Source: a virus. Taken from it: a DNA stretch of 37,062 nucleotides. Both the position numbers and the translations under genes were made by a program. The number at the start of each line of letters is the position of its first letter. Position 1 is the first letter of the stretch. The stretch lies in IMG/VR virus record IMGVR_UViG_3300029908_000077, positions 1 to 37,062 of that record. One strand, given 5' to 3'. The notes beneath the pieces were generated by a model. It saw only the letters and a list, made by a program, of their open reading frames with translations. It was not told the origin of the DNA and ran no database searches. Of the stretch, positions 198 through 30,424 are shown in pieces.

Positions 198-953
198 TTA
201 AATTATGGCAGATTTTTTCCAAACAGTAGTTGCCCCATCATAATTTCCTATGCAAACATAGATAAAACCAGAATCATAGGCAATCATTCCAGCAGAATCT
301 CCGGGAAGACCTATTCCAGTTGGAGTAGCTGATTTTGCAACGGCTGATGTTGGAGCACTTAAAGTAAAATTTAAACCATCGGAACTACCCAAGGTTAATA
401 TATAAGGATTGGTTGTTGTAATTGCAAAATTTGCTGTAGAGCTATTAAAACCAGCAATTCCAATATTACCAGATGTTGTTAATGATCCGCCTACAACAAC
501 ATTTGCAAAATTTAAATATTGCGGAACTGTAGCTGATTCAACTTGTAAAACAAGTTCTGAATATCCAAGTTGTGGGAAATTTGCAATATTAATTGTTTGT
601 GTTACTGGAGTTCCACTTGTAATATTAATATTTGCAACAGCAGTAGATGAAAAATTTAAAGTTGGAACTGAATTAGCTGTTGCTGCCGTAATATTAGATA
701 TTGTTAAAGCAAAATCGAACAACGATAAATTGGAATTTTGCATTCCTCCAAAATTATTAATCGCCGAATTTGATCCGTATAATAATGGAGCACTAACTAT
801 AACTTTATTAAAAAGATCATTTAGTTCTGCAACACATTCTGAAAATGCATTTTGTGTTGCAAGGAAATTTTGTCTAAAGCCAGAACTACTTTGGTTGACG
901 CCCGGAACGGGGTACTGGGTGTTAATTGCGCTGGGATTAATTTGAGAGGCCAT
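198..953 (-). CDS. Fibre-like virion structural protein
   Basis: A 251-aa protein opening MASQINPSAINTQYPVPGVN and continuing with a G-F-R-Q-N-F motif. This N-terminal layout recurs in fibre-like structural proteins of T4-type marine phages. The middle is rich in Ser, Thr, Asn and hydrophobic residues in short beta-strand-like runs. The end (G-M-I-A-Y-D-S-G-F-I-Y-V-C...V-W-K-K) matches the C-terminal signature of many trimeric phage fibres. It has a clear AGGAG ribosome binding site and a GATAAATA late promoter upstream. It lies directly downstream of the large Ig-like protein, which supports a virion role. The function is a family-level inference; exact attachment to baseplate or capsid is not determined. 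Confidence 0.7.
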   Translation of the reverse strand: MASQINPSAINTQYPVPGVNQSSSGFRQNFLATQNAFSECVAELNDLFNKVIVSAPLLYGSNSAINNFGGMQNSNLSLFDFALTISNITAATANSVPTLNFSSTAVANINITSGTPVTQTINIANFPQLGYSELVLQVESATVPQYLNFANVVVGGSLTTSGNIGIAGFNSSTANFAITTTNPYILTLGSSDGLNFTLSAPTSAVAKSATPTGIGLPGDSAGMIAYDSGFIYVCIGNYDGATTVWKKSAII

Positions 954-983
954 TTTGTTTTACTCCTAAAAACTTATTATATA

Positions 984-991
984 TATTTATC
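984..991 (-). promoter_or_regulatory. T4-type late promoter (GATAAATA)
   Basis: GATAAATA on the minus strand, one base different from the T4 late octamer TATAAATA. It abuts the stop codon of the 992-4447 gene and is followed by a leader with AGGAG before the fibre-like gene. The same octamer occurs before other structural genes here, and gp55, the sigma factor that reads such octamers in T4, is encoded at 31615-32493. Confidence 0.65.
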
Positions 992-4447: not shown

Positions 4448-4452
4448 GTATG

Positions 4453-4460
4453 TATTTATC
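4453..4460 (-). promoter_or_regulatory. Late promoter directly abutting the start codon
   Basis: GATAAATA on the minus strand, followed by CATAC and then the ATG of the Ig-like protein gene. With a normal -10 to start-site distance, transcription would begin at or next to the ATG, leaving no 5' leader. An identical geometry occurs at 17047-17054. Confidence 0.65.
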
Positions 4461-4465
4461 TAATA

Positions 4466-4678
4466 TCATGATTCAAACTTTTCCAATGTATCCTTTTCAA
4501 TTTTATACCAAGCGTTTTTCCACGCCTCTTCTTCAGTATCACTATTTTTACCAAGACGAGTATAAGAAAATGCATTAGGATGATAAAAATAAATATAATA
4601 GTAATAACCACAATCTAGATAATTTAACCAACATATTGCACGTGGATATACATTTAAAACCATTTCTTTATAATTCAT
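4466..4678 (-). CDS. KLES-family small protein A1
   Basis: A 70-aa protein, last of the left array. The N-terminal block is M-N-Y-K-E-M-V-L-N-V-Y-P-R-A. The core is unusually tyrosine-rich (C-G-Y-Y-Y-Y-I-Y-F-Y). The C-terminal block is T-E-E-E-A-W-K-N-A-W and ends T-L-E-K-F-E-S. The start overlaps the A2 stop as ATGA. The stop TGA is itself part of an ATGA whose continuation does not code a family member and runs into the late promoter of the Ig-like gene, so the array looks cut off here. Function unknown. Confidence 0.8.
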   Translation of the reverse strand: MNYKEMVLNVYPRAICWLNYLDCGYYYYIYFYHPNAFSYTRLGKNSDTEEEAWKNAWYKIEKDTLEKFES

Positions 4679-4887
4679 GATTCCAGTTTCAATAACATTA
4701 ATCTTTGAATTCTATTCCATGCTTCTTCCCAAGCAGCATCCTCGGTTTTTTGATATCTTGACAAATATACATATTGCCTAGAATCATACCAATATTGAAT
4801 ATAAAATTTTGGATGAACACCTTTAGCATTCATGATCCAAACATGTGCATTTTCATAAACATTTAAAACTTTTTCTTTATATGTCAT
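4675..4887 (-). CDS. KLES-family small protein A2
   Basis: A 70-aa protein. The start at 4887 is preferred over an in-frame ATG 18 codons upstream because it forms the ATGA overlap with A3 and opens with the family block M-T-Y-K-E-K-V-L-N-V-Y. The usual Y-P is Y-E here. The core is aromatic (Y-I-Q-Y-W-Y), followed by T-E-D-A-A-W-E-E-A-W and the end L-L-K-L-E-S. No known domain recognised. Confidence 0.8.
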   Translation of the reverse strand: MTYKEKVLNVYENAHVWIMNAKGVHPKFYIQYWYDSRQYVYLSRYQKTEDAAWEEAWNRIQRLMLLKLES

Positions 4888-5084
4888 GTTTCTAATTTCC
4901 TTACCATGTCTTTTTGAATTTGTTTCCATGCTCTTGCCCATGCTTTCGTTGGAGTAAATTCTTGTTGACTGATAAATAATATTTTTCCAGTATAAAGATC
5001 ACATGCAATTATTGCATATCGTGGTCCCTCAACCCAAACATATGCAGTTGGGTATATTTGTAAAACATACTTTCTAGATGTCAT
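4884..5084 (-). CDS. KLES-family small protein A3
   Basis: A 66-aa protein with N-block M-T-S-R-K-Y-V-L-Q-I-Y-P-T-A and C-block K-A-W-A-R-A-W-K-Q-I-Q-K-D-M-V-R-K-L-E-T. The final Ser is replaced by Thr (ACA), which keeps the ATGA overlap with A2 because the codon still ends in A before TGA. Upstream it overlaps the A4 stop in the same way. Function unknown. Confidence 0.8.
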   Translation of the reverse strand: MTSRKYVLQIYPTAYVWVEGPRYAIIACDLYTGKILFISQQEFTPTKAWARAWKQIQKDMVRKLET

Positions 5085-5272
5085 TGCTCTAACTTTCTTA
5101 ACACATCTTGCTGAATATTATACCATGCATCATCCCACGCAAGAACAGAGGTTCCGCCATTTCCAAGTATAAATATACGACCATCACCTACAAATACTCC
5201 ATATGTTCCATCATATCGAATAAAACAATGTGACATAGGATATATTTTTCTAATATGTTGTTTTGGTGTCAT
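5081..5272 (-). CDS. KLES-family small protein A4
   Basis: A 63-aa protein, one of the shortest members. The core has Gly-rich turns (G-T-Y-G-V-F-V-G-D-G) and the protein ends V-L-R-K-L-E-Q. Unlike most members it does not follow another family gene: it starts 20 nt after the IF-1 stop with its own GGAAAA ribosome binding site. It should therefore be cotranscribed with IF-1 from the promoter at 5532-5560. Function unknown. Confidence 0.8.
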   Translation of the reverse strand: MTPKQHIRKIYPMSHCFIRYDGTYGVFVGDGRIFILGNGGTSVLAWDDAWYNIQQDVLRKLEQ

Positions 5273-5292
5273 TTTGGTTTTCCAATAATATA

Positions 5293-5508
5293 TTAATACC
5301 GATAAACTATTCTACCCAATTCAAGTGAATACGGGGAAAGTTCAATAGCTACCTCATCTCCCGGCTCAATTCTAATATTATTCTTCCTAAGTCTTCCTCC
5401 GAGATATACTGAGATTTCTTGTCCTCCCGGAATTTCTACTAACCATGTTGTATTTGGTAAAGTTTTCAAAACTTTACCACGAATTTGAACCTGATCATTT
5501 TTAGCCAA
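5293..5508 (-). CDS. infA: Translation initiation factor IF-1 (phage-encoded)
   Basis: A 71-aa protein, the usual length of bacterial IF-1. It follows the IF-1 pattern along its whole length: M-A-K-N-D at the N-terminus, then G-K-V-L-K-T-L-P-N-T, a central G-G-R-L-R-K-N-N-I-R-I, then P-G-D-E-V-A-I-E-L-S-P-Y-S-L-E-L-G-R-I-V-Y-R-Y. This is a single OB-fold (S1-like) that binds the ribosomal A site of the 30S subunit during initiation. The start codon is TTG, which gives the standard N-terminus, with AAGGAG about 10 nt upstream; no in-frame ATG is available. It sits inside the left array, behind a perfect consensus sigma70 promoter. Presumably it supplements or replaces host IF-1 during infection; that role is inference. 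Confidence 0.93.
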   Translation of the reverse strand: MAKNDQVQIRGKVLKTLPNTTWLVEIPGGQEISVYLGGRLRKNNIRIEPGDEVAIELSPYSLELGRIVYRY

Positions 5509-5531
5509 AATTTATATTTCTCCTTATTTAC

Positions 5532-5560
5532 ATTATATCTATTTTATTTGTTTTTGTCAA
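5532..5560 (-). promoter_or_regulatory. Consensus sigma70 promoter for IF-1
   Basis: On the minus strand, TTGACA (5560-5555), a 17-bp spacer and TATAAT (5537-5532): an exact match to the sigma70 consensus. The -35 box overlaps the stop codon of A5. Transcription would start near 5525 and give a short leader carrying AAGGAG before the TTG start of IF-1. Confidence 0.8.
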
Positions 5561-5790
5561 ATACCTTTTAATTTATCCATAATATCTTTATTTATTATTG
5601 CCAATGCCCATTGCCAAGCAGCATCTTCATTTATATAAGTTACTGTTAATGGCATATTATTGTCACTTACTAATATCCACCAACGAGGCATTTTATTTGA
5701 AGGACTGCAATCACGAACACATTTTGCATTTGGATACAATTTCAAAACCTGTTCTTTATCTGACATCGGTAGTTCATCAAAATAAGACAT
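5557..5790 (-). CDS. KLES-family small protein A5
   Basis: A 77-aa protein if started at 5790, where TAATG joins it to A6. An internal ATG at 5766 would give a 69-aa form beginning M-S-D-K-E-Q-V-L-K-L-Y-P-N-A-K-C, closer to family length, but with a weaker ribosome binding site. The C-terminus is degenerate (I-M-D-K-L-K-G-I instead of M-L-R-K-L-E-S). This fits with the next gene, IF-1, having its own promoter and ribosome binding site. The stop codon lies within the IF-1 promoter -35 box. Confidence 0.75.
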   Translation of the reverse strand: MSYFDELPMSDKEQVLKLYPNAKCVRDCSPSNKMPRWWILVSDNNMPLTVTYINEDAAWQWALAIINKDIMDKLKGI

Positions 5791-5993
5791 TATGACTCCA
5801 ATTTCTCCAGCATTAATTCTCTTAAATAAATAGATGCACTTCTCCATGCAATTGTGCTCGAATATTCACTATACCCCAATATTTTATTTGTTAAATTATT
5901 TTGAAATACACAATATAGTTTTCCATTATTTAACTCAGTGACATCACATATTGCTTCTGGGTAACAAGATAAAACGAATTTTTTATTAGTCAT
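5790..5993 (-). CDS. KLES-family small protein A6
   Basis: A 67-aa protein with N-block M-T-N-K-K-F-V-L-S-C-Y-P-E-A-I-C and end M-L-E-K-L-E-S. The start at 5993 has an AAGGG-type ribosome binding site. An in-frame reading extends further upstream, but that DNA codes the DUF4116-like gene in another frame. The tryptophan block is A-W-R-S-A-S, with the second Trp missing. It joins A5 through TAATG. Function unknown. Confidence 0.8.
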   Translation of the reverse strand: MTNKKFVLSCYPEAICDVTELNNGKLYCVFQNNLTNKILGYSEYSSTIAWRSASIYLRELMLEKLES

Positions 5994-6003
5994 AATATTC
6001 CCT

Positions 6004-6177
6004 TCAAGACAATAATTTGGCCAACATTTGAACCGATATTGTTGGGTTTTCAATATATTTAATGGCCTGACCATCTTCATTAACCGCAGCCAATTGCACA
6101 GATTCACTTGGGTTTTGAATAAATCGAATGAAATAACCATTTTTATTAACGGCAATCAATTGTTCTTTTTCTGTCAT
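6004..6177 (-). CDS. Small DUF4116-like repeat protein
   Basis: A 57-aa gene between A7 and A6. It starts within the A7 stop (TAATG) and ends with TGA 10 nt before the A6 start. It contains two copies of a short repeat of type Q-L-(I/A)-A-V-N-x-(N/D)-G-x-x-I-(R/K)-(F/Y)-I-(Q/E)-N-P, near residues 6-23 and 28-45, with a partial third copy near 49. This pattern resembles the DUF4116-type repeats (helical, often in phage and intracellular-bacterial proteins), usually present in longer arrays. It is unrelated to the KLES family but uses the same coupling signals. Function unknown. Confidence 0.7.
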   Translation of the reverse strand: MTEKEQLIAVNKNGYFIRFIQNPSESVQLAAVNEDGQAIKYIENPTISVQMLAKLLS

Positions 6178-6386
6178 TATTTTTCCAAAACTCGCAACAT
6201 TTCTTTTTCAAGAATATTAGATGCTTGTATCCATGCATTATTTTCTGATTCCATATCATATCCAAGTAATTTTGGAATTTTTGAATTAATATCATCATAA
6301 ATCAGAAAATATGCTCCCCTTGGATAAGTAATTTTTTTACATATTGCCATTGGATATGAACTTATTACTACATCTCGTTTTATCAT
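6177..6386 (-). CDS. KLES-family small protein A7
   Basis: A 69-aa protein with N-block M-I-K-R-D-V-V-I-S-S-Y-P-M-A-I-C. The core includes L-L-G-Y-D-M-E-S-E-N-N-A-W, and the end is M-L-R-V-L-E-K. The start overlaps the A8 stop as ATGA and the stop overlaps the DUF4116-like gene as TAATG. Function unknown. Confidence 0.8.
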   Translation of the reverse strand: MIKRDVVISSYPMAICKKITYPRGAYFLIYDDINSKIPKLLGYDMESENNAWIQASNILEKEMLRVLEK

Positions 6387-6640
6387 TGTTCCAATTTCTC
6401 CAACATTAGTTTTTCAATATTATTCCATGCATTTTTCCAAGCATTGTTTTCATCGGGAGCAACACCAAGCAACTTATGAATTATTGCATATTCATTGTTT
6501 ACTCTAAAATTATATTCTATATATGTTCTTTTTTCAATTGTGTAAATTCTGAATTCAAATTCCGATGGATATAATCTACGTTTATTCATATCACATCTGG
6601 CATCTGGATAAATATTTATTACTTTTTCTTTAAAATCCAC
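6383..6640 (-). CDS. KLES-family small protein A8 (GTG start)
   Basis: An 85-aa member, one of the longest. It begins at GTG (6640) with the family block M-D-F-K-E-K-V-I-N-I-Y-P-D-A-R-C. The core has a charged stretch and then L-L-G-V-A-P-D-E-N-N-A-W-K-N-A-W. It ends M-L-E-K-L-E-Q with ATGA coupling to A7. The start lies 22 nt inside A9, whose stop has been lost at the normal junction position. Confidence 0.78.
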   Translation of the reverse strand: MDFKEKVINIYPDARCDMNKRRLYPSEFEFRIYTIEKRTYIEYNFRVNNEYAIIHKLLGVAPDENNAWKNAWNNIEKLMLEKLEQ

Positions 6641-6879
6641 TGAGACTCCAATCTCGAAAGCATTTTATGTCGGAAGGTTTCAGCAACGGTAAACCATGCA
6701 TCTTTTATTGATATAACGCTATAACCAACCAAATATTGTCGATCCTGTGCATCCACTGCATACACTACATATAATGGATTTCCTTTATCATACATTGGAC
6801 CTATTGGTAAATCAGTATTATCAAGAGTTCTACATGTTGCAGACGGAATTATTGATTGCACAAATTTTTTATCTGTCAT
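6619..6879 (-). CDS. KLES-family small protein A9 (C-terminally extended)
   Basis: An 86-aa protein with N-block M-T-D-K-K-F-V-Q-S-I-I-P-S-A-T-C. It reaches the family end M-L-S-R-L-E-S, where a stop would be expected, but the next codon is CAG. Translation continues seven more residues (Q-W-I-L-K-K-K) to TAA, overlapping the A8 start region. The family's usual tandem Trp block is degenerate (D-A-W-F-T-V-A). Only one Trp of the pair remains. Function unknown. Confidence 0.78.
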   Translation of the reverse strand: MTDKKFVQSIIPSATCRTLDNTDLPIGPMYDKGNPLYVVYAVDAQDRQYLVGYSVISIKDAWFTVAETFRHKMLSRLESQWILKKK

Positions 6880-7103
6880 TATGACTCCAATTTCTCCAAC
6901 ATATTTATTTGAATATTATTCCATGCATCTTTCCAAGCATTATTTTCAGTATCACTACATCCAAGCAATGCATAATAATTCGTTGTATCTCTATAGATAG
7001 AAATTTCTGCATTCCATATTCTAAATTCTGTTAACCGATAAGACTCAAATACTTTACAATAAGCATCTGGATAAATTATCAATACCTTTTCTTTATAATT
7101 CAT
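6879..7103 (-). CDS. KLES-family small protein A10
   Basis: A 74-aa protein close to the family consensus: M-N-Y-K-E-K-V-L-I-I-Y-P-D-A-Y-C, then L-L-G-C-S-D-T-E-N-N-A-W-K-D-A-W-N-N-I, ending M-L-E-K-L-E-S. The stop joins A9 as TAATG. The start is 5 nt after the premature stop of A11. Function unknown. Confidence 0.82.
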   Translation of the reverse strand: MNYKEKVLIIYPDAYCKVFESYRLTEFRIWNAEISIYRDTTNYYALLGCSDTENNAWKDAWNNIQINMLEKLES

Positions 7104-7108
7104 TATGA

Positions 7109-7351
7109 CTACAAGTTATAAAGCATTTCATTTTTAATATCTTCTGCCAAAATTTTCCATGCTTCTTTTTCTGTTGATCCCCAAGCCATTGTCATTATAT
7201 CGTTAATATATCTCTTTTGATTAAAACGTATTATAAATCTTTCGTTTTTCCTAGTCCATGGACTAACTGAAAGTCTTTTTCCTGTATTTTTCCAGCTATC
7301 CTCGCACCATGCACCTTTATATATCGACTTACACAATGTTTTATTTGTCAT
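7109..7351 (-). CDS. KLES-family small protein A11 (lost last two residues)
   Basis: An 80-aa protein ending M-L-Y-N-L followed by TAG. The next codons would be TCA and TAA, so the expected ...L-E-S-stop has become L-stop by a single GAG-to-TAG change. The rest of the junction (TCATAATG) is intact. The core is basic (W-K-N-T-G-K-R-L-S). The coding change removes residues 81-82 but also alters the GGAG ribosome binding site of A10. Confidence 0.78.
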   Translation of the reverse strand: MTNKTLCKSIYKGAWCEDSWKNTGKRLSVSPWTRKNERFIIRFNQKRYINDIMTMAWGSTEKEAWKILAEDIKNEMLYNL

Positions 7352-7560
7352 GATTCTAATTTTCTCAAAAAATCTTTTTGTATAATTTCACGCGCTTCTT
7401 CCCACGCTTCCGCCTTACTATTTCTATAATGTCTATCATTTTGCATTGTTCTCATACCGCACACTTGCCACCAACCATCTTTTTTATTTCCGCCAAAATT
7501 TAGATTATAACATTCAGCACAAGGATAAAATGATTTTACAAATTTTTCATTTTCATCCAT
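7348..7560 (-). CDS. KLES-family small protein A12
   Basis: A 70-aa protein from the ATG at 7560 (TAATG with A13), opening M-D-E-N-E-K-F-V-K-S-F-Y-P-C-A-E-C. A longer in-frame reading exists upstream but only covers A13 in another frame. Two Cys flank the Y-P-x-A motif. The Trp block is A-E-A-W-E-E-A and the end is F-L-R-K-L-E-S, with ATGA to A11. Function unknown. Confidence 0.8.
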   Translation of the reverse strand: MDENEKFVKSFYPCAECYNLNFGGNKKDGWWQVCGMRTMQNDRHYRNSKAEAWEEAREIIQKDFLRKLES

Positions 7561-7781
7561 TATGATTCCAACTTTCTCAACACCATTCTTTTGATATCTA
7601 TTGCAATTTCTTTCCACGCCATTGAAACCGAATAATATGTCATGGGATACATTAATCGCATTTCTATGACGCTCATCGGAATTCCATGAATTCTCCATAA
7701 TCCAGTTTTTTCGCCGCGCATATATAACATTTTGCATCGAGCATCTGGATAAATCGATTTTACAAATTCTTTATTTGTCAT
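7560..7781 (-). CDS. KLES-family small protein A13
   Basis: A 73-aa protein with the most typical N-block, M-T-N-K-E-F-V-K-S-I-Y-P-D-A-R-C. It has a Met-rich core, a single A-W, and the end M-V-L-R-K-L-E-S. TAATG junctions lie on both sides. Function unknown. Confidence 0.82.
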   Translation of the reverse strand: MTNKEFVKSIYPDARCKMLYMRGEKTGLWRIHGIPMSVIEMRLMYPMTYYSVSMAWKEIAIDIKRMVLRKLES

Positions 7782-8002
7782 TATGACTCCAATTTATGTA
7801 ACATTACCCAACTCAACCATTCTGCACTATGTATCCACGCTTGATCTTCATTTTTACTCCAACCAAGCGATCTTGCACAATACTTATCTGCATTTTCATA
7901 AGATTCATATTCATACACAATATTTGTTCCATCTTCCCAAGTTATAACATATGCATCTGGATATATAGATATAACCATTGATTTTGCTTCATCGAGTGTC
8001 AT
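7781..8002 (-). CDS. KLES-family small protein A14
   Basis: A 73-aa protein that shares an extended N-terminus (D-E-A-K-S-M-V) with A15, so these two form a sub-group. The core is acidic (E-Y-E-S-Y-E-N-A-D-K). The C-block is E-D-Q-A-W-I-H-S-A-E-W...M-L-H-K-L-E-S. The start follows the A15 stop by 3 nt and the stop joins A13 as TAATG. Confidence 0.82.
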   Translation of the reverse strand: MTLDEAKSMVISIYPDAYVITWEDGTNIVYEYESYENADKYCARSLGWSKNEDQAWIHSAEWLSWVMLHKLES

Positions 8003-8005
8003 ATA

Positions 8006-8245
8006 TTAAGACTCCAACGTATGCATCATTTGATTCATAATTCTATCCGCTGCCTGTTTCCACGTCAATCCTTCAAATATTTCAATTGACATGCTGTGAT
8101 TTTTACACCTAAAAGTTGTTCCCAATTCCATACTACCACCGACAATTATAAAATTAAGTCCACTATTCCTGCCAATACCCCATTTACGTAAACAAGCATC
8201 GGGATAGCATGATAAAACCATTGATTTTGCTTCATCGGCTGTCAT
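8006..8245 (-). CDS. KLES-family small protein A15 (first of left array)
   Basis: A 79-aa protein with N-block M-T-A-D-E-A-K-S-M-V-L-S-C-Y-P-D-A-C. It has a Gly/Ser-containing core, L-T-W-K-Q-A-A-D-R-I, and the end M-M-H-T-L-E-S. It starts 3 nt after the stop of the broken ORF at 8249-8524. The A15 C-terminal codons contain TTGGAG, which serves as ribosome binding site for A14. Function unknown. Confidence 0.82.
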   Translation of the reverse strand: MTADEAKSMVLSCYPDACLRKWGIGRNSGLNFIIVGGSMELGTTFRCKNHSMSIEIFEGLTWKQAADRIMNQMMHTLES

Positions 8246-8248
8246 ATA

Positions 8249-8524
8249 TCATACCCACAATTTTTTAACGATAGGAAGAATTCGTCTAAATGCTTTAGCA
8301 CGAAGTCTAGAACAATTAGCATTATACTTCTTCAATTCTCGTTCATGACTTTTGCTCAAATATGGAGCACCATACTTCTTGGTATTAATTCCTCTATCAT
8401 GAAATCAAAACATCATTCTATCTGACATTCTCTCAGCCAAAGCGGAAGCAAATCCTTTGGGCGTTGTATATGTCTTCCCAAAACATGAGATAACGGTAGT
8501 CTTTTTTATCTTAAAAATTACCAT
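8249..8524 (-). pseudogene. Small ORF interrupted by an in-frame TGA
   Basis: Starting from the ATG at 8524 the frame is open for 39 codons (M-V-I-F-K-I-K-K-T-T-V...M-M-F). It meets TGA at 8407-8405, then stays open for another 51 codons (F-H-D-R-G-I-N-T-K-K-Y-G...L-W-V) to a second TGA at 8251. The downstream half is basic and looks like coding sequence. A TGG-to-TGA change in a roughly 91-aa gene explains the pattern. Alternatives are readthrough or two separate small proteins. This interval has no other gene. Function unknown. Confidence 0.55.
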
Positions 8525-8526
8525 TT

Positions 8527-8543
8527 TGTAAATAAGTCATTTA
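8527..8543. other. Short inverted repeat after the 393-aa gene
   Basis: GTAAAT, a 5-nt loop and ATTTAC form a small perfect hairpin. It begins at the stop codon of the 8541-9722 gene and lies just before the ATG of the broken ORF. With only 6 AT-rich pairs and no U-tract it is unlikely to be a strong terminator. Confidence 0.3.
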
Positions 8544-9722: not shown

Positions 9723-9728
9723 GTTTTA

Positions 9729-9757
9729 AATATATCAAATTTTGGATTGGTTGTCAA
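9729..9757 (-). promoter_or_regulatory. Leftward early sigma70 promoter
   Basis: On the minus strand, TTGACA (9757-9752), a 17-bp spacer and TATATT (9734-9729). The spacer differs at one base from the spacer of the rightward promoters at 10681, 10967 and 11425. It is positioned 6 nt before the ATG of the 393-aa gene. Confidence 0.75.
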
Positions 9758-9807
9758 CAAAAATATACATACACAAAACAAAGGACTTAAAATAAATCAT
9801 ATTTTGG

Positions 9808-9836
9808 TTGACTTCTTGCTATCTATTTGATATACT
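9808..9836 (+). promoter_or_regulatory. Early sigma70 promoter
   Basis: TTGACT (9808-9813), a 17-bp spacer and TATACT (9831-9836). It is preceded by ATTTTGG and followed by AATCTTGTA, both shared with other early promoters in this region. It forms a divergent pair with the promoter at 9729-9757. Confidence 0.75.
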
Positions 9837-9870
9837 AATCTTGTAATCGAGAAATGACAAGGAGAAAATC

Positions 9871-10188
9871 ATGAGACGCCAAGCACACACGATTGAAACT
9901 CTTCGGATGCAAAACAAATTAAATGTGCGATTTGCAAAAACCTCTGTTGATCATACCACAGATGGGGCAAAAGCGTATGATGTGATTGGTATTTCAGGAG
10001 ACTATTGGCAGATTCACAAACACGGTTGTAGTGCAACTTTTTCCAATAATGGACAAACTTTGTCGGCTGATTTGGTTTGGGCTAAAACCGAAGATGAAAT
10101 TGCCCCACAAGTCATTGATTCTGATATGCTTGCAATGGGGTATGATTATGATTATGTAAAATTCCACAATTGCACAAAGAAATATTAA
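9871..10188 (+). CDS. Early hypothetical protein (105 aa)
   Basis: A 105-aa protein with a basic start (M-R-R-Q-A-H-T-I-E-T) and a mixed alpha/beta-looking body. The C-terminal segment Y-D-Y-D-Y-V-K-F-H-N is conspicuous. It has AAGGAG before the ATG and a strong sigma70 promoter 35 nt upstream. First gene of the rightward early cluster. No domain recognised; early takeover roles are common for such genes but nothing in the sequence proves one. Confidence 0.65.
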   Translation: MRRQAHTIETLRMQNKLNVRFAKTSVDHTTDGAKAYDVIGISGDYWQIHKHGCSATFSNNGQTLSADLVWAKTEDEIAPQVIDSDMLAMGYDYDYVKFHNCTKKY

Positions 10189-10196
10189 GATTTTGG

Positions 10197-10225
10197 TTGA
10201 CATTTAATCAAAATTTTGGTATTCT
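10197..10225 (+). promoter_or_regulatory. Early sigma70 promoter
   Basis: TTGACA (10197-10202), a 17-bp spacer and TATTCT (10220-10225). The spacer contains the palindrome CAAAATTTTG. It drives the 134-aa gene. Confidence 0.65.
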
Positions 10226-10268
10226 ATATATGTAAGTGATTGAGAAACAACCTTGAAAGGGAGAGAAA

Positions 10269-10673
10269 ATGAGCGCAGAAACGATCAAGTTTAGCAACAT
10301 TCTTCACAGCCAATTTGGTTCCGATTACACACAAGTTTGGAACAATACACTTCGTGCAACGACCGCGCTTGCCGAACTTCGTAGCTTTTATATGAATAAT
10401 AGCACACCAACCAATATTCCGTATGTGCATGGGTTTAGTGTAATGAAACGGACATGGAATGATCCTACTTTTGAACCCATGTTTGTTGAAATGTTTGACG
10501 AACTCGGTTCTTTTTTGATGGCGCAAACAAGCGATGATCTGATTCTAATGACATTGAGCATGGCATTTTCATTGAACGGTGATTATCATATTAGTGCCGG
10601 AACCAATATTTGCAATGCAAAGTGCTGGCCACCATTGGTTAATCGTTGCTTCCCGTTAATGAAGAAATTGTAA
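10269..10673 (+). CDS. Early hypothetical protein (134 aa)
   Basis: A 134-aa protein opening M-S-A-E-T-I-K-F-S-N-I-L. It contains several aromatic/Met-rich helix-like segments (W-N-D-P-T-F-E-P-M-F-V-E-M-F-D-E-L near residues 60-80). Cys residues near the C-terminus (N-I-C-N-A-K-C-W-P-P) could bind a metal but are too few to claim this. GAAAGGGAG provides a strong ribosome binding site. Its own promoter lies at 10197. Not recognised. Confidence 0.65.
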   Translation: MSAETIKFSNILHSQFGSDYTQVWNNTLRATTALAELRSFYMNNSTPTNIPYVHGFSVMKRTWNDPTFEPMFVEMFDELGSFLMAQTSDDLILMTLSMAFSLNGDYHISAGTNICNAKCWPPLVNRCFPLMKKL

Positions 10674-10680
10674 TTTTTAG

Positions 10681-10709
10681 TTGACAACCAAACCAAAATT
10701 TGATATACT
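10681..10709 (+). promoter_or_regulatory. Early sigma70 promoter
   Basis: TTGACA (10681-10686), a 17-bp spacer and TATACT (10704-10709). The whole stretch through the following AATCTTGTA is identical to the promoters at 10967 and 11425. Confidence 0.8.
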
Positions 10710-10735
10710 AATCTTGTAAGTGAGAAAGGACTCAA

Positions 10736-10939
10736 ATGAAAAACGGAATCTATGTTGTTCAAACCAAAGGATTCGTAGAGCGCGAACTTGTCAAAATTTA
10801 CGAATTTGATGATTATACTGGTCAACAGGTAACATTTTTTAATGATCCAGACAGTTCTTGGAACATTGAACAATTACTTGAGTCTTGTGAAGTTATTTGC
10901 CGTTTGGATTTGTATTCTTTTGAAAGGGAGGATGTATGA
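10736..10939 (+). CDS. Early hypothetical protein (67 aa)
   Basis: A 67-aa acidic protein (M-K-N-G-I-Y-V-V-Q-T-K-G-F...S-F-E-R-E-D-V), mostly beta-like at the N-terminus. AAAGGA precedes the ATG. Its stop overlaps (ATGA) the miniature ORF at 10936. No family recognised. Confidence 0.6.
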   Translation: MKNGIYVVQTKGFVERELVKIYEFDDYTGQQVTFFNDPDSSWNIEQLLESCEVICRLDLYSFEREDV

Positions 10940-10962
10940 CACTAGAACAAAAGATTAACTAA
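10936..10962 (+). pseudogene. Collapsed duplicate of the 127-aa early gene
   Basis: A nine-codon reading frame (M-T-L-E-Q-K-I-N-stop). It joins the first codons of the 11037-11420 gene directly to that gene's last codons, followed by the same promoter and leader as after that gene. It looks like a tandem duplicate whose interior was deleted between the K-I-N codons present near both ends of the gene. Confidence 0.65.
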
Positions 10963-10966
10963 TCTC

Positions 10967-10995
10967 TTGACAACCAAACCAAAATTTGATATACT
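10967..10995 (+). promoter_or_regulatory. Early sigma70 promoter
   Basis: TTGACA (10967-10972), a 17-bp spacer and TATACT (10990-10995), upstream of the 127-aa gene. The sequence from TCTC before the -35 through TTGTAGTC is repeated at 11421. Confidence 0.8.
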
Positions 10996-11036
10996 AATCT
11001 TGTAGTCAGAAATAACCTTGAAAGGGAGAGAAAATT

Positions 11037-11420
11037 ATGACACTAGAACAAAAAATCAACGGTGTTGTCAATGATTTGATCACCAAAGCCATAACCAGCG
11101 ATGCAAATTCCAGTCATGTATATAAGGAAGCTGCTGATATGCTCCGCGCTGCTCTACAACCCACTCTCAAATTTGAAGGGGTCGCAATGGTTGGTGATAC
11201 GATCCGCGCCTATGATTTTGAGCCTATAAAGGGACGTTTGGATTCCTATATTGAGGGTGATGTGCGCGAAATCGTTGAAGCCGTTACACCGTTTGGATAC
11301 AAGGCATATCATGTAATTCTTACATATGATAGTTTTGGCAGAAGGCCACGTGGAACAAGTATTTACGTTCCAATGGAAACAACATTTGATTGGGAAAACA
11401 GGGTGCAAAAGATCAACTAA
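11037..11420 (+). CDS. Conserved early phage protein (127 aa)
   Basis: A 127-aa protein. The first 45 residues look helical (M-T-L-E-Q-K-I-N-G-V-V-N-D). A beta-rich section follows with the motif V-G-D-T-I-R-A-Y-D-F-E-P-I-K-G-R near residues 52-68, then Y-V-P-M-E and D-W-E-N-R-V at the end. That motif recurs in small proteins of many large phages without known function. It has a strong GAAAGGGAG ribosome binding site and its own early promoter. A deleted duplicate lies immediately upstream. Confidence 0.7.
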   Translation: MTLEQKINGVVNDLITKAITSDANSSHVYKEAADMLRAALQPTLKFEGVAMVGDTIRAYDFEPIKGRLDSYIEGDVREIVEAVTPFGYKAYHVILTYDSFGRRPRGTSIYVPMETTFDWENRVQKIN

Positions 11421-11424
11421 TCTC

Positions 11425-11453
11425 TTGACAACCAAACCAAAATTTGATATACT
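11425..11453 (+). promoter_or_regulatory. Early sigma70 promoter
   Basis: TTGACA (11425-11430), a 17-bp spacer and TATACT (11448-11453), upstream of the acidic protein gene. It is part of the near-identical promoter set. Confidence 0.8.
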
Positions 11454-11486
11454 AATCTTGTAGTCAAGAAATGACAGGAGAGAAAT

Positions 11487-11735
11487 ATGACCAGATCGAA
11501 TCGCGCTTTGCTCACACTTCCCCAAGAACTCACTCTCGTCTATATGGACGAAATTGCAGATGATGTTGAAATGGCTGCTGATGATGAAGGTATGTATGGC
11601 GAGGATGAGTATATGTCCTATGCCTATGACTCGTTTTATGATGAAGATGAAGGTGACTTTTATGACGAGCCGGAGTACACAGGATTTCCGAATTTTGACG
11701 ATGATTTTAGTGATTTTGATGGAGAGGAATTTTAA
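11487..11735 (+). CDS. Highly acidic early protein (possible DNA mimic)
   Basis: An 82-aa protein with 28 Asp/Glu residues and only two basic residues (Arg3, Arg6). The acidic residues are spread from residue 14 to the end and interleaved with Tyr and Phe (e.g. Y-D-E-D-E-G-D-F-Y-D-E-P-E-Y). Such composition is typical of phage DNA-mimic proteins such as Ocr and other anti-restriction or nucleoid-binding inhibitors. No homology to a specific one is visible. Early expression from a strong promoter with AGGAGAG fits an anti-defence role, but this is inference from composition. Its stop overlaps the next start as TAATG. Confidence 0.72.
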   Translation: MTRSNRALLTLPQELTLVYMDEIADDVEMAADDEGMYGEDEYMSYAYDSFYDEDEGDFYDEPEYTGFPNFDDDFSDFDGEEF

Positions 11736-11980
11736 TGATTATGCTTGTTGGTGATACATTTTACAATGATGGTTATTGGATCAATCATGGTCCGGCAATA
11801 CCAGTTGATACTGTGATTCAAGAGTGTTTTGTTGGTGTTGATAACAAAATCAAGCATATTGGATGTTGCTACACCGGTATTCGGTCCCAAAAGGACAAGC
11901 CAGAATATACATATGAAAGAGATTATCGTGACACTTTTTACTGGCGGCACACTGGACTTTCGAGGGAGAATATCAGTTAA
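11735..11980 (+). CDS. Early hypothetical protein (81 aa)
   Basis: An 81-aa protein starting in the stop codon of the acidic protein (TAATG), so the two are likely coexpressed. It has Cys residues C31, C44 and C45, and a Y/R-rich C-terminal third (Y-E-R-D-Y-R-D-T-F-Y-W-R). Net charge is near neutral. The tight coupling suggests a functional partner of the acidic protein. No domain recognised. Confidence 0.62.
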   Translation: MIMLVGDTFYNDGYWINHGPAIPVDTVIQECFVGVDNKIKHIGCCYTGIRSQKDKPEYTYERDYRDTFYWRHTGLSRENIS

Positions 11981-12029
11981 ATAACAGAAAACAATCACTT
12001 TATTTTAAGTAAAATATATCAGATTTTGG

Positions 12030-12058
12030 TTGACTTCTTACGATCTATTTGATATACT
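12030..12058 (+). promoter_or_regulatory. Early sigma70 promoter of the right array operon
   Basis: TTGACT (12030-12035), a 17-bp spacer and TATACT (12053-12058), preceded by ATTTTGG as at 9801. It is the last promoter I can find before the 12090-12422 gene and the following 15 array genes, so it probably transcribes all of them. Confidence 0.75.
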
Positions 12059-12089
12059 ATATATGTAGTCAAGAGAGGGAGAGAAAAAC

Positions 12090-12437: not shown

Positions 12438-12635
12438 ATGACATATCGCCAACGAATTATCGAGACATATAAATATGCATCATGCCACAAAACTCTTGGT
12501 ATGAATAATTATCATGTCGTAATCAATGGTGTATGCGAAGCGTGGGGAGACACTCGTGATAAAGCATGGAGTAATGCTTTTAAATGGTATAAGAATAGAA
12601 TTGCGGTAAGAACTTTAAGAAAATTTGAATCATGA
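12438..12635 (+). CDS. KLES-family small protein B1
   Basis: A 65-aa protein from the ATG at 12438, with GGAGG 8 nt upstream. An in-frame TTG at 12423 is not needed. The N-block is M-T-Y-R-Q-R-I-I-E-T-Y-K-Y-A-S-C, with Y-K instead of Y-P. The C-block is D-K-A-W-S-N-A-F...L-R-K-F-E-S. First gene of the right array; ATGA to B2. Function unknown. Confidence 0.82.
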   Translation: MTYRQRIIETYKYASCHKTLGMNNYHVVINGVCEAWGDTRDKAWSNAFKWYKNRIAVRTLRKFES

Positions 12636-12832
12636 AAGATAAAGATTTAGTTCTTTCTATATATCCTAACGCAACGGATTATTGCAGAAAAGACTCTATA
12701 AAACATTGCATAGTTGATGATATTGGTCATAGCTATATGTTTATTAGTGGTTTTTATTATTTCGAAGACCATGCGTGGGAAGAGGTCGCGAAGAGAATTA
12801 AGATGGATATGCTAAGGAAACTGGAGTCTTAA
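12632..12832 (+). CDS. KLES-family small protein B2
   Basis: A 66-aa protein: M-K-D-K-D-L-V-L-S-I-Y-P-N-A, an aromatic patch (F-I-S-G-F-Y-Y-F), H-A-W-E-E-V-A-K-R-I, end M-L-R-K-L-E-S. The stop TAA is immediately followed by the B3 ATG with no gap. Function unknown. Confidence 0.84.
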   Translation: MKDKDLVLSIYPNATDYCRKDSIKHCIVDDIGHSYMFISGFYYFEDHAWEEVAKRIKMDMLRKLES

Positions 12833-13027
12833 ATGACAGACAAAGAATTTGTTCTGAATGTTGAACCGACCGCAAAAGTTAAAAGATACCCACCGGGTTG
12901 GATGATGACTACAAGATACGGAAAAGTTGGCAGTGCTTGGTTAACCCTTGCAAATTCTGAGAATGGTTCTTGGAAAAGAATAGCTGATCTATATCGAACA
13001 GAGATGCTAAGGAAACTTGAATCATGA
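12833..13027 (+). CDS. KLES-family small protein B3
   Basis: A 64-aa protein with N-block M-T-D-K-E-F-V-L-N-V-E-P-T-A, where the near-invariant Tyr is Glu. The core is rich in Pro, Gly and Trp (Y-P-P-G-W-M-M). It has G-S-W-K-R-I-A-D-L and ends M-L-R-K-L-E-S. ATGA to B4. Function unknown. Confidence 0.82.
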   Translation: MTDKEFVLNVEPTAKVKRYPPGWMMTTRYGKVGSAWLTLANSENGSWKRIADLYRTEMLRKLES

Positions 13028-13224
13028 CAAAAGATGAACAATTCGTGCGAAATATATACCCAAATATTGTTATAATTAAATGGGGTAGCACGTATATTGA
13101 TGTGCGCGAATCATATGCAGGGAAACTTATTACTATTATGTCACGTGATCCCGGAAAAAATAAACGATGGACTGCAATAAAAAATACTATTAAAAATTCA
13201 ATGTTAAGGAAATTAGAGTCATGA
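13024..13224 (+). CDS. KLES-family small protein B4
   Basis: A 66-aa basic protein: M-T-K-D-E-Q-F-V-R-N-I-Y-P-N-I, with Ile replacing the Ala of Y-P-x-A. The Trp block is R-W-T-A-I-K-N-T-I and the end M-L-R-K-L-E-S. ATGA overlaps on both sides. Function unknown. Confidence 0.82.
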   Translation: MTKDEQFVRNIYPNIVIIKWGSTYIDVRESYAGKLITIMSRDPGKNKRWTAIKNTIKNSMLRKLES

Positions 13225-13403
13225 TATATCGTCAAAAAGTTCTTGATATTTATCCAGATGCTTTTCTTGGAAAAAGTTTTTCAGGATTCGTTGTATTTAA
13301 TGATATTAATCCATTGAGCCAAGATATGTGTTTTGAGTCTTTGGCGTGGGAGAATGCATGGAAAATTATTGAACTCGAAATGCTGAGGAAGCTGGAGTCA
13401 TAG
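13221..13403 (+). CDS. KLES-family small protein B5 (shortest)
   Basis: A 60-aa protein, the shortest family member: M-I-Y-R-Q-K-V-L-D-I-Y-P-D-A, a brief core, L-A-W-E-N-A-W-K-I-I, end M-L-R-K-L-E-S. It shows that the two terminal blocks with about 25 residues between them are sufficient. Its TAG stop is followed by one base and the B6 ATG. Confidence 0.84.
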   Translation: MIYRQKVLDIYPDAFLGKSFSGFVVFNDINPLSQDMCFESLAWENAWKIIELEMLRKLES

Positions 13404-13404
13404 A

Positions 13405-13602
13405 ATGACAAATAAAGAATTTGTTTTGAGTATTTATCCAGATGCCAAATCTAAAAAATTTTATTGCAATGGAGTTAGGATGACTAATATTATAATAGGT
13501 AAGTGGTTAATTTGGGATTCAACAGCAAAAAGTGCCACTGGTTCTTGGAAAATGGCCGCTGATGATTTGAGGAAAACGATGTTAAGGAAGCTGGAGTCAT
13601 AA
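13405..13602 (+). CDS. KLES-family small protein B6
   Basis: A 65-aa protein with the consensus start M-T-N-K-E-F-V-L-S-I-Y-P-D-A. The core is M-T-N-I-I-I-G-K-W-L-I-W-D. It has G-S-W-K-M-A-A-D-D-L and ends M-L-R-K-L-E-S. TAATG to B7. Function unknown. Confidence 0.84.
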   Translation: MTNKEFVLSIYPDAKSKKFYCNGVRMTNIIIGKWLIWDSTAKSATGSWKMAADDLRKTMLRKLES

Positions 13603-13814
13603 TGACTAATAAACAATTTGTGCAAAGTGTCGTTTCAACGGCAAAAGCCTATCAAGATCAGAATCTTATCTGGTATATTTCATATAGTCCTATTTTTAAT
13701 CTTAATACTGCAATTTTCCCACGATCACTGTTTAATTGTGTTACGGCAAAGTCTGCATGGGCAGAAACAGCAAAATTTTTGCGCAAAGAAATGCTAAGGA
13801 AGCTGGAGTCATGA
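13602..13814 (+). CDS. KLES-family small protein B7
   Basis: A 70-aa protein: M-T-N-K-Q-F-V-Q-S-V-V-S-T-A, so the Y-P pair is replaced by V-S. It has a Phe-rich core, K-S-A-W-A-E-T-A-K-F-L, and the end M-L-R-K-L-E-S. Its last codons (AAGGAAGCTGGAGTCATGA) show both Shine-Dalgarno elements used by B8. Function unknown. Confidence 0.83.
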   Translation: MTNKQFVQSVVSTAKAYQDQNLIWYISYSPIFNLNTAIFPRSLFNCVTAKSAWAETAKFLRKEMLRKLES

Positions 13815-14053
13815 AACTAAATCAATCTTTTATCAATATGCATCTTATTCCGCTTATCGAATATCATAAACAGCGAGTGATTGCGGTTTATCCGAAGGCC
13901 CATTTCTCGGATGGTTTTATTTATGATGGTTTGATGAAAATTACAAGCGATAGAATGAATATATATGATGGTATTGAATCAGAATATTATGCTTGGATGA
14001 AAGCATGGGATTTTATTGAAAAAATGATGTTAAAGAAATTGGAATCAGAATGA
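13811..14053 (+). CDS. KLES-family small protein B8
   Basis: An 80-aa protein with an N-terminal extension (M-K-L-N-Q-S-F-I-N-M-H-L) before the family block H-K-Q-R-V-I-A-V-Y-P-K-A. The start at 13811 is chosen for the ATGA overlap with B7. The C-block is Y-A-W-M-K-A-W-D-F-I...M-L-K-K-L-E-S-E, with one extra Glu before the stop. Confidence 0.8.
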   Translation: MKLNQSFINMHLIPLIEYHKQRVIAVYPKAHFSDGFIYDGLMKITSDRMNIYDGIESEYYAWMKAWDFIEKMMLKKLESE

Positions 14054-14283
14054 ACAAAAATGAACAATTCGTGAAGAGTATATATCCAACAGCACATGTT
14101 ACCCATACATCTCCGGGTGGTGGTGCATGGATGGGTATTATACAATATCGAGTATATCAGGCACATAGCATTAATGAAATCGGTTGTTATAATGAAATTG
14201 GTGTTGGAAATACCGAAGGGTGGGCATGGTATATGGCAGTTAAATATATTCAAAAAGAATGCCTTAAAAAGTTAGAAGTATAA
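14050..14283 (+). CDS. KLES-family small protein B9
   Basis: A 77-aa protein: M-N-K-N-E-Q-F-V-K-S-I-Y-P-T-A, a Gly-rich turn (S-P-G-G-G-A-W-M-G), a second G-V-G-N segment, W-A-W-Y-M-A-V-K-Y-I, end C-L-K-K-L-E-V. TAA, one base, then the B10 ATG. Function unknown. Confidence 0.82.
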   Translation: MNKNEQFVKSIYPTAHVTHTSPGGGAWMGIIQYRVYQAHSINEIGCYNEIGVGNTEGWAWYMAVKYIQKECLKKLEV

Positions 14284-14284
14284 T

Positions 14285-14530
14285 ATGTCCGATGCTAAAA
14301 ATTTTGTTCAAGCAATATATCCCAATGCTGTTGCTTTAAGTGCAGGATATTGCAAAGTATGTAATCGTAATCTTCCAGCAGATATGATTGTTATTGTTAA
14401 TGATCAATTTTATAATTATTTTAGCGCGGCATGTTTATTATTGAGTGGTTTTGAGGATACGGAAGATATTGCTTGGAAGAAAGCAGCAGAATACATTCAA
14501 CATAATATGTTGAGAAAGTTGGAATTATGA
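14285..14530 (+). CDS. KLES-family small protein B10
   Basis: An 81-aa protein: M-S-D-A-K-N-F-V-Q-A-I-Y-P-N-A, a core with C-K-V-C and a further Cys, I-A-W-K-K-A-A-E-Y-I, end M-L-R-K-L-E-L. The CxxC could hint at metal binding in this one member but a second pair is lacking. ATGA to B11. Confidence 0.82.
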   Translation: MSDAKNFVQAIYPNAVALSAGYCKVCNRNLPADMIVIVNDQFYNYFSAACLLLSGFEDTEDIAWKKAAEYIQHNMLRKLEL

Positions 14531-14724
14531 ACGATAAAATTTTTGTGCAAAATGTTTATCCAAATGCAGTGGCTTATCAAATAGATTTAAAATTCTATAT
14601 TGTTGCTGACAAACAAGCTCAATATTGGCAATGGTTAAGTAAAGACTATTATTATGAATGTTATGCTTGGGAAAATGCAGCAAAAAATATTCAAAGAACC
14701 ATGTTGCAAAAGCTGGAAGCATAA
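14527..14724 (+). CDS. KLES-family small protein B11
   Basis: A 65-aa protein: M-N-D-K-I-F-V-Q-N-V-Y-P-N-A, an aromatic core (Y-W-Q-W-L-S-K-D-Y-Y-Y), Y-A-W-E-N-A-A-K-N-I, end M-L-Q-K-L-E-A. TAATG to B12. Function unknown. Confidence 0.83.
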   Translation: MNDKIFVQNVYPNAVAYQIDLKFYIVADKQAQYWQWLSKDYYYECYAWENAAKNIQRTMLQKLEA

Positions 14725-14927
14725 TGACCAATAAAAATTTCGTAAAATTGTCTTCTACTGGTGCTTATTGTGCTGAGTATTGTTCTGGTCCTGAGAAATA
14801 TATAATTGTTGCTTATCCAAATACAATGTGGTTTGGAACCGCTGCTAGAGCAAATACACCAAAAATGGCATGGAAGAAAGCGGCTGATATTTTAAGAAAA
14901 AGAATGTTGGAAAGGTTCGAATCATGA
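14724..14927 (+). CDS. KLES-family small protein B12
   Basis: A 67-aa protein from the ATG at 14724 (TAATG): M-T-N-K-N-F-V-K-L-S-S-T-G-A, in which the Y-P-x-A motif is eroded to S-T-G-A. It has M-A-W-K-K-A-A-D-I-L and ends M-L-E-R-F-E-S. The conserved ends of the block are kept although its centre has changed. ATGA to B13. Confidence 0.82.
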   Translation: MTNKNFVKLSSTGAYCAEYCSGPEKYIIVAYPNTMWFGTAARANTPKMAWKKAADILRKRMLERFES

Positions 14928-15127
14928 CTGATAAAGAGTTTGTAAAATCTATTTATCCAATGGCAAATGCACATTATATAAGATATCATAAAAAATATGT
15001 TATTATTGATGATGCGGCAACAACTATATGGAATTGGATAAGCTATATGTATGTGTATGAATCTGGTGCATGGCGGAATGCAACAAATGAAATTAAAAAG
15101 GAAATGTTGGAAAGATTAGAATCATGA
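14924..15127 (+). CDS. KLES-family small protein B13
   Basis: A 67-aa protein: M-T-D-K-E-F-V-K-S-I-Y-P-M-A, K-Y-V-I-I-D-D-A, a Trp/Tyr patch, G-A-W-R-N-A-T-N-E-I, end M-L-E-R-L-E-S. ATGA to B14. Function unknown. Confidence 0.84.
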   Translation: MTDKEFVKSIYPMANAHYIRYHKKYVIIDDAATTIWNWISYMYVYESGAWRNATNEIKKEMLERLES

Positions 15128-15351
15128 CACATAGACTGACATATAGACAAAAAGTAATATCCATCTATCCAGATGCTCATTTTTATTATGGTTATAATAT
15201 TGTAACTTGGAAACTAAGCAAATATGCTGTTGCTGATTGGAAAACTGGAAGTTATGTATATTTAAGTGCGAGTAAGTATACTGTAAAAGAAGCATGGAAA
15301 GATGCTTGGAATAATATTCAACAAGATATGTTAAGGAAGTTCGAATCATGA
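15124..15351 (+). CDS. KLES-family small protein B14
   Basis: A 75-aa protein with a few extra residues before L-T-Y-R-Q-K-V-I-S-I-Y-P-D-A. The core is Y-G-Y-N-I-V-T-W-K-L, then E-A-W-K-D-A-W-N-N-I and the end M-L-R-K-F-E-S. The N-block is closest to B1, B5 and the left-array genes A1, A2 and A10, so sub-types are shared between arrays. ATGA to B15. Confidence 0.84.
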   Translation: MTHRLTYRQKVISIYPDAHFYYGYNIVTWKLSKYAVADWKTGSYVYLSASKYTVKEAWKDAWNNIQQDMLRKFES

Positions 15352-15551
15352 TTGCTAAACAATTTGTTTTATCATTATATCCCAATTCTAGATGTATTCG
15401 ACTCAAGGAATATCCCATGAATGCTAAAAAATATTATATATCTTGTGCAGTTGCAACTTTTTGGCTTACTCAGGGAAACACATCAAAAGAAGCATGGACA
15501 ACAACAATGAACATAATTCAAAAGCAATTTTTAGATAAACTAGAAAGCTAA
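15348..15551 (+). CDS. KLES-family small protein B15 (last of right array)
   Basis: A 67-aa protein: M-I-A-K-Q-F-V-L-S-L-Y-P-N-S-R-C, a basic core, E-A-W-T-T-T-M-N-I-I, end F-L-D-K-L-E-S. It ends in TAA, overlapping the convergent gene's stop by 4 bp. Its last codons no longer look like a strong ribosome binding site, as expected for a final gene. Confidence 0.83.
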   Translation: MIAKQFVLSLYPNSRCIRLKEYPMNAKKYYISCAVATFWLTQGNTSKEAWTTTMNIIQKQFLDKLES

Positions 15552-29903: not shown

Positions 29904-30179
29904 CTACTCCTCAAATTTGTTTAGTGTATCTTGTTGAATTTTTTCCCATGCATTTATCCAAGCCTTTGTTTCAGTGTCACAACCAGAACTATACTCGTAC
30001 TCGTGATATCTGTAATTGTTTTCTATTGGACCTTCTAGTATATAATATACCCAATCATCATATTGAATATGATCTTCATTAAAATAAGAAAATTTCCTAA
30101 GTAAACACATTGCATTTGGATAAATTTTTAAAACTGATTTTTGATTTTCAATTAAAATATCTAACATTATTTGTTTCAT
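29904..30179 (-). CDS. KLES-family small protein C1 (outlier locus)
   Basis: A 91-aa protein, the longest family member. It has an N-terminal extension before the block K-S-V-L-K-I-Y-P-N-A-M-C. The core is acidic and Tyr-rich (Y-R-Y-H-E-Y-E-Y), followed by T-K-A-W-I-N-A-W-E-K-I-Q and the end T-L-N-K-F-E-E. The final G-A-G-G-A-G bases act as gp47's Shine-Dalgarno. The start overlaps the C2 stop (ATGA). It lies far from both arrays, in the gp46/47 operon. Confidence 0.8.
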   Translation of the reverse strand: MKQIMLDILIENQKSVLKIYPNAMCLLRKFSYFNEDHIQYDDWVYYILEGPIENNYRYHEYEYSSGCDTETKAWINAWEKIQQDTLNKFEE

Positions 30180-30424
30180 CTCTCAAATTTATCCAACATT
30201 TCTTGTTGAATTTTTTCCCATGCATCTCGCCATGCAAGTTCTTCAGTATCGGACCATCTACTATAACAAGATGGCCATCTTGGAAAAACTCTTCCAAGAT
30301 TTAATTCCCGCATAATTTCCACTGGTATATCCATAATACAATATGAACCATTATATGTAAAGCACTTAGCATCTGGATAAATTTTTTGAACTTGATCACA
30401 AAACAAAATCATCATATTACTCAT
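30176..30424 (-). CDS. KLES-family small protein C2 (outlier locus)
   Basis: An 82-aa protein with M-S-N-M-M-I-L-F-C-D-Q-V-Q-K-I-Y-P-D-A-K-C. A Trp/Pro core is followed by T-E-E-L-A-W-R-D-A-W-E-K-I-Q and the end M-L-D-K-F-E-R. The start overlaps the end of the upstream homing-type endonuclease by 8 nt; internal ATGs at codons 4 and 5 are alternative starts. Function unknown. Confidence 0.78.
   Translation of the reverse strand: MSNMMILFCDQVQKIYPDAKCFTYNGSYCIMDIPVEIMRELNLGRVFPRWPSCYSRWSDTEELAWRDAWEKIQQEMLDKFER

Follow-up and report, generated by a model that had tools for sequence, protein, structure and literature searches.

Divergent arrays of one small, variable protein family in a putative jumbo T4-like phage: a candidate set of early host-takeover or counter-defence binders

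In T4-like and jumbo phages, the regions devoted to early host takeover contain blocks of small open reading frames (ORFs) behind strong sigma-70-like promoters. The locus described here lies within positions 1 to 37,062 of IMG/VR virus record IMGVR_UViG_3300029908_000077 (the whole stretch analysed, hereafter the window). It resembles those regions in having small, uncharacterized ORFs behind strong sigma-70-like promoters, but most of the block belongs to one protein family, which we call the KLES family, present in 30–73 copies in two divergent arrays. At the level of the single protein, a described counterpart is Acb4 (PF13876, Phage_gp49_66), the sponge of phage SPO1 directed against the cyclic oligonucleotide-based antiphage signalling system (CBASS). 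Like the KLES proteins it is small and phage-encoded, and it has the alpha-beta-beta-beta-alpha topology of double-stranded RNA-binding domains (dsRBDs) and sequesters CBASS signals (PMC11722364).

All 32 KLES ORFs of the window form a single homologous family. The original prediction had allowed that a hidden Markov model (HMM) might show them to be unrelated; instead, each is recovered by a leave-one-out profile built from the other 31 members, with E values from 8e-8 at worst to 2e-21 in a search space of 398 ORFs, and iterated HMM searches of all six frames of the window return exactly 32 members. They lie where they had been placed, 15 in a minus-strand array, 15 in a plus-strand array and two more on the minus strand (Table 1), although the minus array also contains two genes from outside the family. 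The earlier estimate of about 6.7 kb devoted to the family was of the right order, the figure being about 7.0 kb. The members are mutually only about 30% identical, yet all 32 ORFs are open, with internal stops in 0/32. For several ORFs the listed start lies too far upstream, and the true start is more likely an internal ATG adjoining the previous stop. In column statistics drawn from 139 members (the basis of all residue frequencies below), the tryptophan of the AW motif is near-invariant (138/139), and YPxA (P in 123/139) and KLES (S in 57/111) are weaker, which corrects the N- and C-terminal blocks as originally described. Pfam, PHROGs, NCBIfam and PADLOC give no consistent profile match across members, only scattered matches to one member each, in agreement with the proposed lack of known enzymatic motifs, and searches of the open-access literature found no earlier description of such an expansion, as had been supposed.

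Sequence comparisons place the window in the genome of a jumbo T4-like myovirus. Positions 1–18393 are 99.96% identical to IMG/VR contig 3300029922_000100 (the sister contig, G001), from which the window differs at 7 bases. The major capsid protein gp23 of the sister is 66–71% identical to those of the jumbo myoviruses 2.275.O, GAP32 and CBB, the gp47-like protein of the window is 45% identical to those of jumbo myoviruses, and the presence of these T4-type markers (gp23 in the sister, and gp46/gp47 homologues) supports the assignment. Jumbo myoviruses of the GAP32, CBB, 121Q, 2.275.O and PA5oct type share the general lineage, gp46/gp47 and a major capsid protein of 65–71% identity, but none of those searched has a KLES-family member.

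Searches with single proteins in phages and IMG/VR matched only the near-identical sister contig. The 32-row alignment is too variable for peptide seeding, and relatives were located by the DNA pattern of the C-terminal helix, which has 10 matches in the window and none in shuffled sequences. Nor is this contig exceptional in copy number: an HMM count per genome, as the original prediction proposed, gives 83 matches, and 86 after iteration, in an independent genome of 359,890 bp (G036), whose 240–289 kb region matches the window collinearly for about 49 kb. Around the gene that also separates the arrays in the window (the anchor gene), G036 has a minus array of 59 members and a plus array of 14; three more lie beside gp47 (283061–283801), where the window has two, and 10 copies are scattered. 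Further members were found in G035 (19 in 19.5 kb), G046–G049 (13), G037 (3) and G051 (about 24, several weak), all copy numbers being lower bounds since metagenome contigs may be incomplete. The 8–9 kb array regions of G046–G049 (IMG/VR 3300028854, 3300029914, 3300029915 and 3300029913) are 100% identical, and these contigs therefore represent one phage strain recurring across samples. Divergent KLES arrays occur in each of the five lineages that have the anchor gene in this form (392–401 amino acids), with the gene between or beside them. Weak matches in Moraxella phages proved not to be family members, and matches to the C-terminal-helix pattern in eight bacterial genomes were unconfirmed by HMM.

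Based on the early-type promoters, the fast turnover, the contrast between a fixed core and a hypervariable surface and the absence of the family from relatives beyond this group, we read the KLES family, with a probability of roughly 45%, as an expanded group of binders that serve early host takeover or counter-defence. The arrays would be fired early in infection by host-type sigma-70 promoters. A fixed hydrophobic core would hold the alpha-beta-beta-beta-alpha fold of a lineage-specific domain, and the varying strand surfaces and loops would let each copy bind a different partner, be it a host enzyme, a defence protein or a defence signal. The repertoire may be kept and renewed as copies duplicate in tandem, diverge and are lost, a pattern anticipated for host takeover or counter-defence. 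The KLES block would both close the last helix and supply the following gene with its ribosome-binding site, with the array translated as a coupled chain. Conservation in five phage lineages, the predicted fold, the sigma-70-like promoters and the fast evolution would fit many host targets. Weighing against the binder interpretation, the family profile finds no member in 35 or more further related records, which comprise cultured phages of the jumbo and T4-like kinds as well as IMG/VR contigs whose gp23 or gp47 is related, so that in those phages the function would be dispensable or met otherwise. Neither of two predicted structures has a significant fold match in the PDB (best E 0.08 and 0.65), and about five G036 copies have internal stops, implying that constraint does not act on every copy.

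The expectation of early expression comes from the promoter sequences between the arrays. Seven of the nine extended -10 sigma-70-like promoters of the window lie within 2.3 kb there; a single one is directed toward the anchor gene and the minus array, and the other six toward small genes and the plus array. The six, near consensus in the extended -10 element, sit in repeated units of about 50–80 bp that precede small genes, several of which are kept at the same place in G036. A divergent pair of sigma-70-like promoters is central in all four lineages scanned (the window, G036, G035 and G048). The arrays are probably divergent operons with host-type sigma-70 promoters, among the first genes expressed.

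The fold was predicted with AlphaFold for two members, one from the 32 sequences and one from 96. Both models, the structural check suggested with the original prediction, show a confident alpha-beta-beta-beta-alpha arrangement (predicted local distance difference test scores of 88.6 and 96.4), and their secondary-structure order, H-E-E-E-H, is that of dsRBDs. In Foldseek, the dsRBDs of DHX9/MLE were the top PDB matches of the first model (probability 0.97, template modelling score 0.56), with an E value of only 0.08; the second, better model had no significant match, with HPF, RaiA and RNase III far down the list. In BFVD, two proteins of uncultured phages give matches, with E values of 2.6e-4 and 1.4e-3. 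Across the family, the conserved positions form a hydrophobic core (V7, Y11-P12-A14, an aromatic residue at 27, I29, A56-W57, A60, I64, M68-L69 and L72), which is near-invariant, and the strand and loop positions are hypervariable, with entropy near 4 bits. The earlier picture of variable parts on a fixed scaffold thus holds.

We take the models to indicate a shared dsRBD topology and do not claim homology to dsRBDs. This topology is nonetheless the starting point for an alternative in which the KLES proteins are dsRBD-like and act on RNA or the ribosome, redirecting host translation, with each copy addressing another RNA site. In common with dsRBDs, which give the best, though weak, fold matches of one model, and with HPF/RaiA-type proteins, they appear to have the same order of elements, about 65–75 residues and a long C-terminal helix, and in two phages the array retains a gene for translation initiation factor IF-1. 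However, they differ from dsRBDs in an extended second helix and the near-invariant tryptophan, Pfam scans of 32 and 96 members gave no match to a dsRBD family (PF00035 and relatives), and the RNA-binding residues of dsRBDs (the GPxH loop, and KKxAK at helix 2) are not conserved. Helix 2 instead starts with T/S-E-x-x-A-W, with lysine or arginine in only 14–17% of cells at positions 53–55. Nor is the charge uniformly basic, ranging from -11 to +9 between members. The suggestion of many RNA ligands in the original prediction is therefore compatible with the topology but not with these residues and charges, and we regard an RNA- or ribosome-directed role as rather unlikely.

The C-terminal KLES tail has properties beyond those of a protein scaffold. 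In G036 the tail [ML]L-x-[KR]-[LF]-E-x ends 18 genes from outside the family, compared with 0.4 expected from its internal frequency, although those of the 18 that fall within one family are not independent counts. The bearers include members of another small family (GDxVxW...EEAMLWKLENA) as well as several membrane proteins of small size. Among small non-family genes, the tail is associated with translational coupling to the following gene (14/113 coupled versus 3/277 uncoupled, p 5e-6). In the window the tail codons are biased toward GGAG, a Shine-Dalgarno-like sequence for the next gene: leucine is encoded by YTG in 14/22 cases versus 24% genome-wide (p 1.4e-4), and glutamate by GAG in 10/22 versus 13% (p 3.3e-4). 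A role as ribosome-binding site only was rejected, because genes at array ends without a downstream gene keep the tail (15348–15551 in the window, 268213–268410 in G036) and the hydrophobic position (L/F) is conserved with synonymous variation; a role at the DNA level is supported. From these patterns we read the tail as a genuine helix end that also encodes the next ribosome-binding site and acts in part as a translational-coupling element. The C-terminal block is accordingly not purely scaffold, which modifies the original description. As a separate observation, the GDxVxW family is itself expanded in G036 (255742–256874 on the minus strand, 67.5–70.5 kb on the plus strand, and at 183 kb, 219 kb and 225 kb), partly inside the KLES array; the members tested gave no Pfam match and only a weak PHROG match for one member. 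We consider it possible, but hardly likely, that the family constitutes a phage repertoire system, in which one mini-domain with a fixed core and a hypervariable face would be kept in 30–90 copies, diversified as the arrays duplicate and turn over, as a binder library against host and defence factors. In that reading the shared MLxKLES helix, which unrelated small proteins of these phages also bear, would be a common handle for one effector or location in addition to carrying the ribosome-binding site of the gene that follows.

The rate of change was assessed between the two collinear phages. Among the core genes checked, the median identity between the window or its sister and G036 is about 70% (gp23 96%, portal 86%, gp46/47 72–73%), whereas the nine clear pairs of orthologous KLES genes have a median identity of 41% (range 32–56%), and most copies have no clear partner. 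The arrays hold 30 copies in the window versus 73 in G036, in spans between the same flanking genes of 11 kb and about 23 kb, respectively. Four ortholog pairs keep the same order together with IF-1 (6643, 6180, 5793 and 5566 in the window; 258489, 257848, 257430 and 255554 in G036), which indicates that single copies are individually retained. The comparison points to birth-and-death turnover with retention of individual copies. Four consecutive KLES genes of G036 (245617–246507, minus strand) have no ATG, GTG or TTG and an apparent ATA start that overlaps the previous stop (ATAG/ATAA); either translational coupling allows unusual start codons here, or the genes have decayed.

Such turnover could also arise from run-away duplication of a recombination-prone cassette, defined by its conserved gene ends and starts, with little function and under weak selection. 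The conserved junction DNA would promote unequal recombination, and the unequal copy numbers, the interrupted G036 copies and the four that lack a standard start are what this explanation predicts. Nevertheless, every window copy is open, the core residues are conserved across the 139 sequences, clear orthologs persist between phages whose copies have diverged this far, four of them in order, and the copies beside gp47 are kept in both phages. We judge this explanation improbable. About as improbable is that the KLES proteins are Acb4-like ligand sponges, oligomers that sequester immune nucleotide signals with copies specialized per signal. The topology and size class are the same and the diversity would suit many signals, but PF13876 matches 0 of 32 members (E up to 0.5) and 0 of 96 (E up to 0.05), and the conserved positions, which are other than those of Acb4, form the hydrophobic core and include no polar pocket residues; the section of PMC11722364 covered here mentions no expansion of Acb4. 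That the family supplies virion, scaffold or compartment components in many variants, such as decoration or ejected internal proteins, is very improbable, since only the size of the investment speaks for it (jumbo phages have many minor virion proteins), the arrays surround clustered sigma-70-like promoters, and KLES members are absent from the relatives searched beyond the group that share its core virion genes.

Table 1. Coordinates of the KLES genes and of the features within and between the arrays of the window
Feature	Position	Strand	Remarks
KLES minus array, 15 genes	4466..8245	-	mostly start-stop overlap (ATGA/TAATG)
Minus array genes 1-5 from promoter	8006-8245, 7781-8002, 7560-7781, 7348-7560, 7109-7351	-	
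Minus array genes 6-10 from promoter	6879-7103, 6619-6879, 6383-6640, 6177-6386, 5790-5993	-	
Minus array genes 11-15 from promoter	5557-5766, 5081-5272, 4884-5084, 4675-4887, 4466-4678	-	
Translation initiation factor IF-1, non-family gene in minus array	5293..5508	-	Pfam PF01176 (eIF-1a), E 1.4e-17
57-amino-acid non-family ORF in minus array	6004..6177	-	weakly DUF4116-like, E 0.0044, below Pfam cut-off
Anchor gene between arrays, 393 amino acids	8541..9722	-	PHROG 11903 (unknown function)
Sigma-70-like promoter TTGACA-17-TATATT	9729..9757	-	extended -10; faces anchor gene and minus array
Six sigma-70-like extended -10 promoters	9808, 10197, 10681, 10967, 11425, 12030 (9808..12058)	+	face small genes and plus array
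Small non-family genes among promoters (1-4)	9871-10188, 10269-10673, 10736-10939, 11037-11420	+	
Small non-family genes among promoters (5-7)	11487-11735, 11735-11980, 12090-12422	+	12090-12422 is DUF7717
KLES plus array, 15 genes	12438..15551	+	
Plus array genes 1-5	12438-12635, 12632-12832, 12833-13027, 13024-13224, 13221-13403	+	
Plus array genes 6-10	13405-13602, 13602-13814, 13811-14053, 14050-14283, 14285-14530	+	
Plus array genes 11-15	14527-14724, 14724-14927, 14924-15127, 15124-15351, 15348-15551	+	
Two extra KLES-family genes	29904..30424	-	directly upstream of SbcD/gp47-like gene

The IF-1 gene has a counterpart in G036 (255288–255503) at the same relative place in the array. A phage-encoded IF-1 is likewise found in Sinorhizobium phage Phosso (116147–116365) and in Lak phages.

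Elsewhere in the window, a TnpB-like (IS605 OrfB) gene, recognized by eye at 17166–18389 on the plus strand, ends where the window and its sister part (18393). It is apparently missing from G036 at that place, and therefore probably represents an insertion at which the assembly branches. A chimeric join at 18393 was excluded by the collinearity of the window with G036 across that point. An inverted repeat of about 92% identity (1–199 and 36827–37025) joins the ends of the contig; it either marks the end of a paralogous gene on the opposite strand or results from the assembly. Endonuclease-like ORFs with repeated units, also read by eye, occur at 30417–31607 and 22256–23227 and as L011 and L012 of the sister contig; such repeated units are characteristic of the homing or free-standing endonucleases that jumbo phages carry.

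Phage genomes are presumed to be kept compact by selection. Despite this presumed pressure, the lineage devotes up to about 17 kb to about 86 copies of one small domain. The KLES tail shows cleanly how a peptide motif and a candidate ribosome-binding site can occupy the same bases, and the two collinear phages, with core proteins about 70% and KLES proteins about 41% identical, make an arms-race interpretation directly testable. If the KLES proteins are indeed binders of host and defence proteins, the arrays would be a ready-made library of inhibitors on a common, confidently predicted scaffold, in which each copy would point to a host factor.

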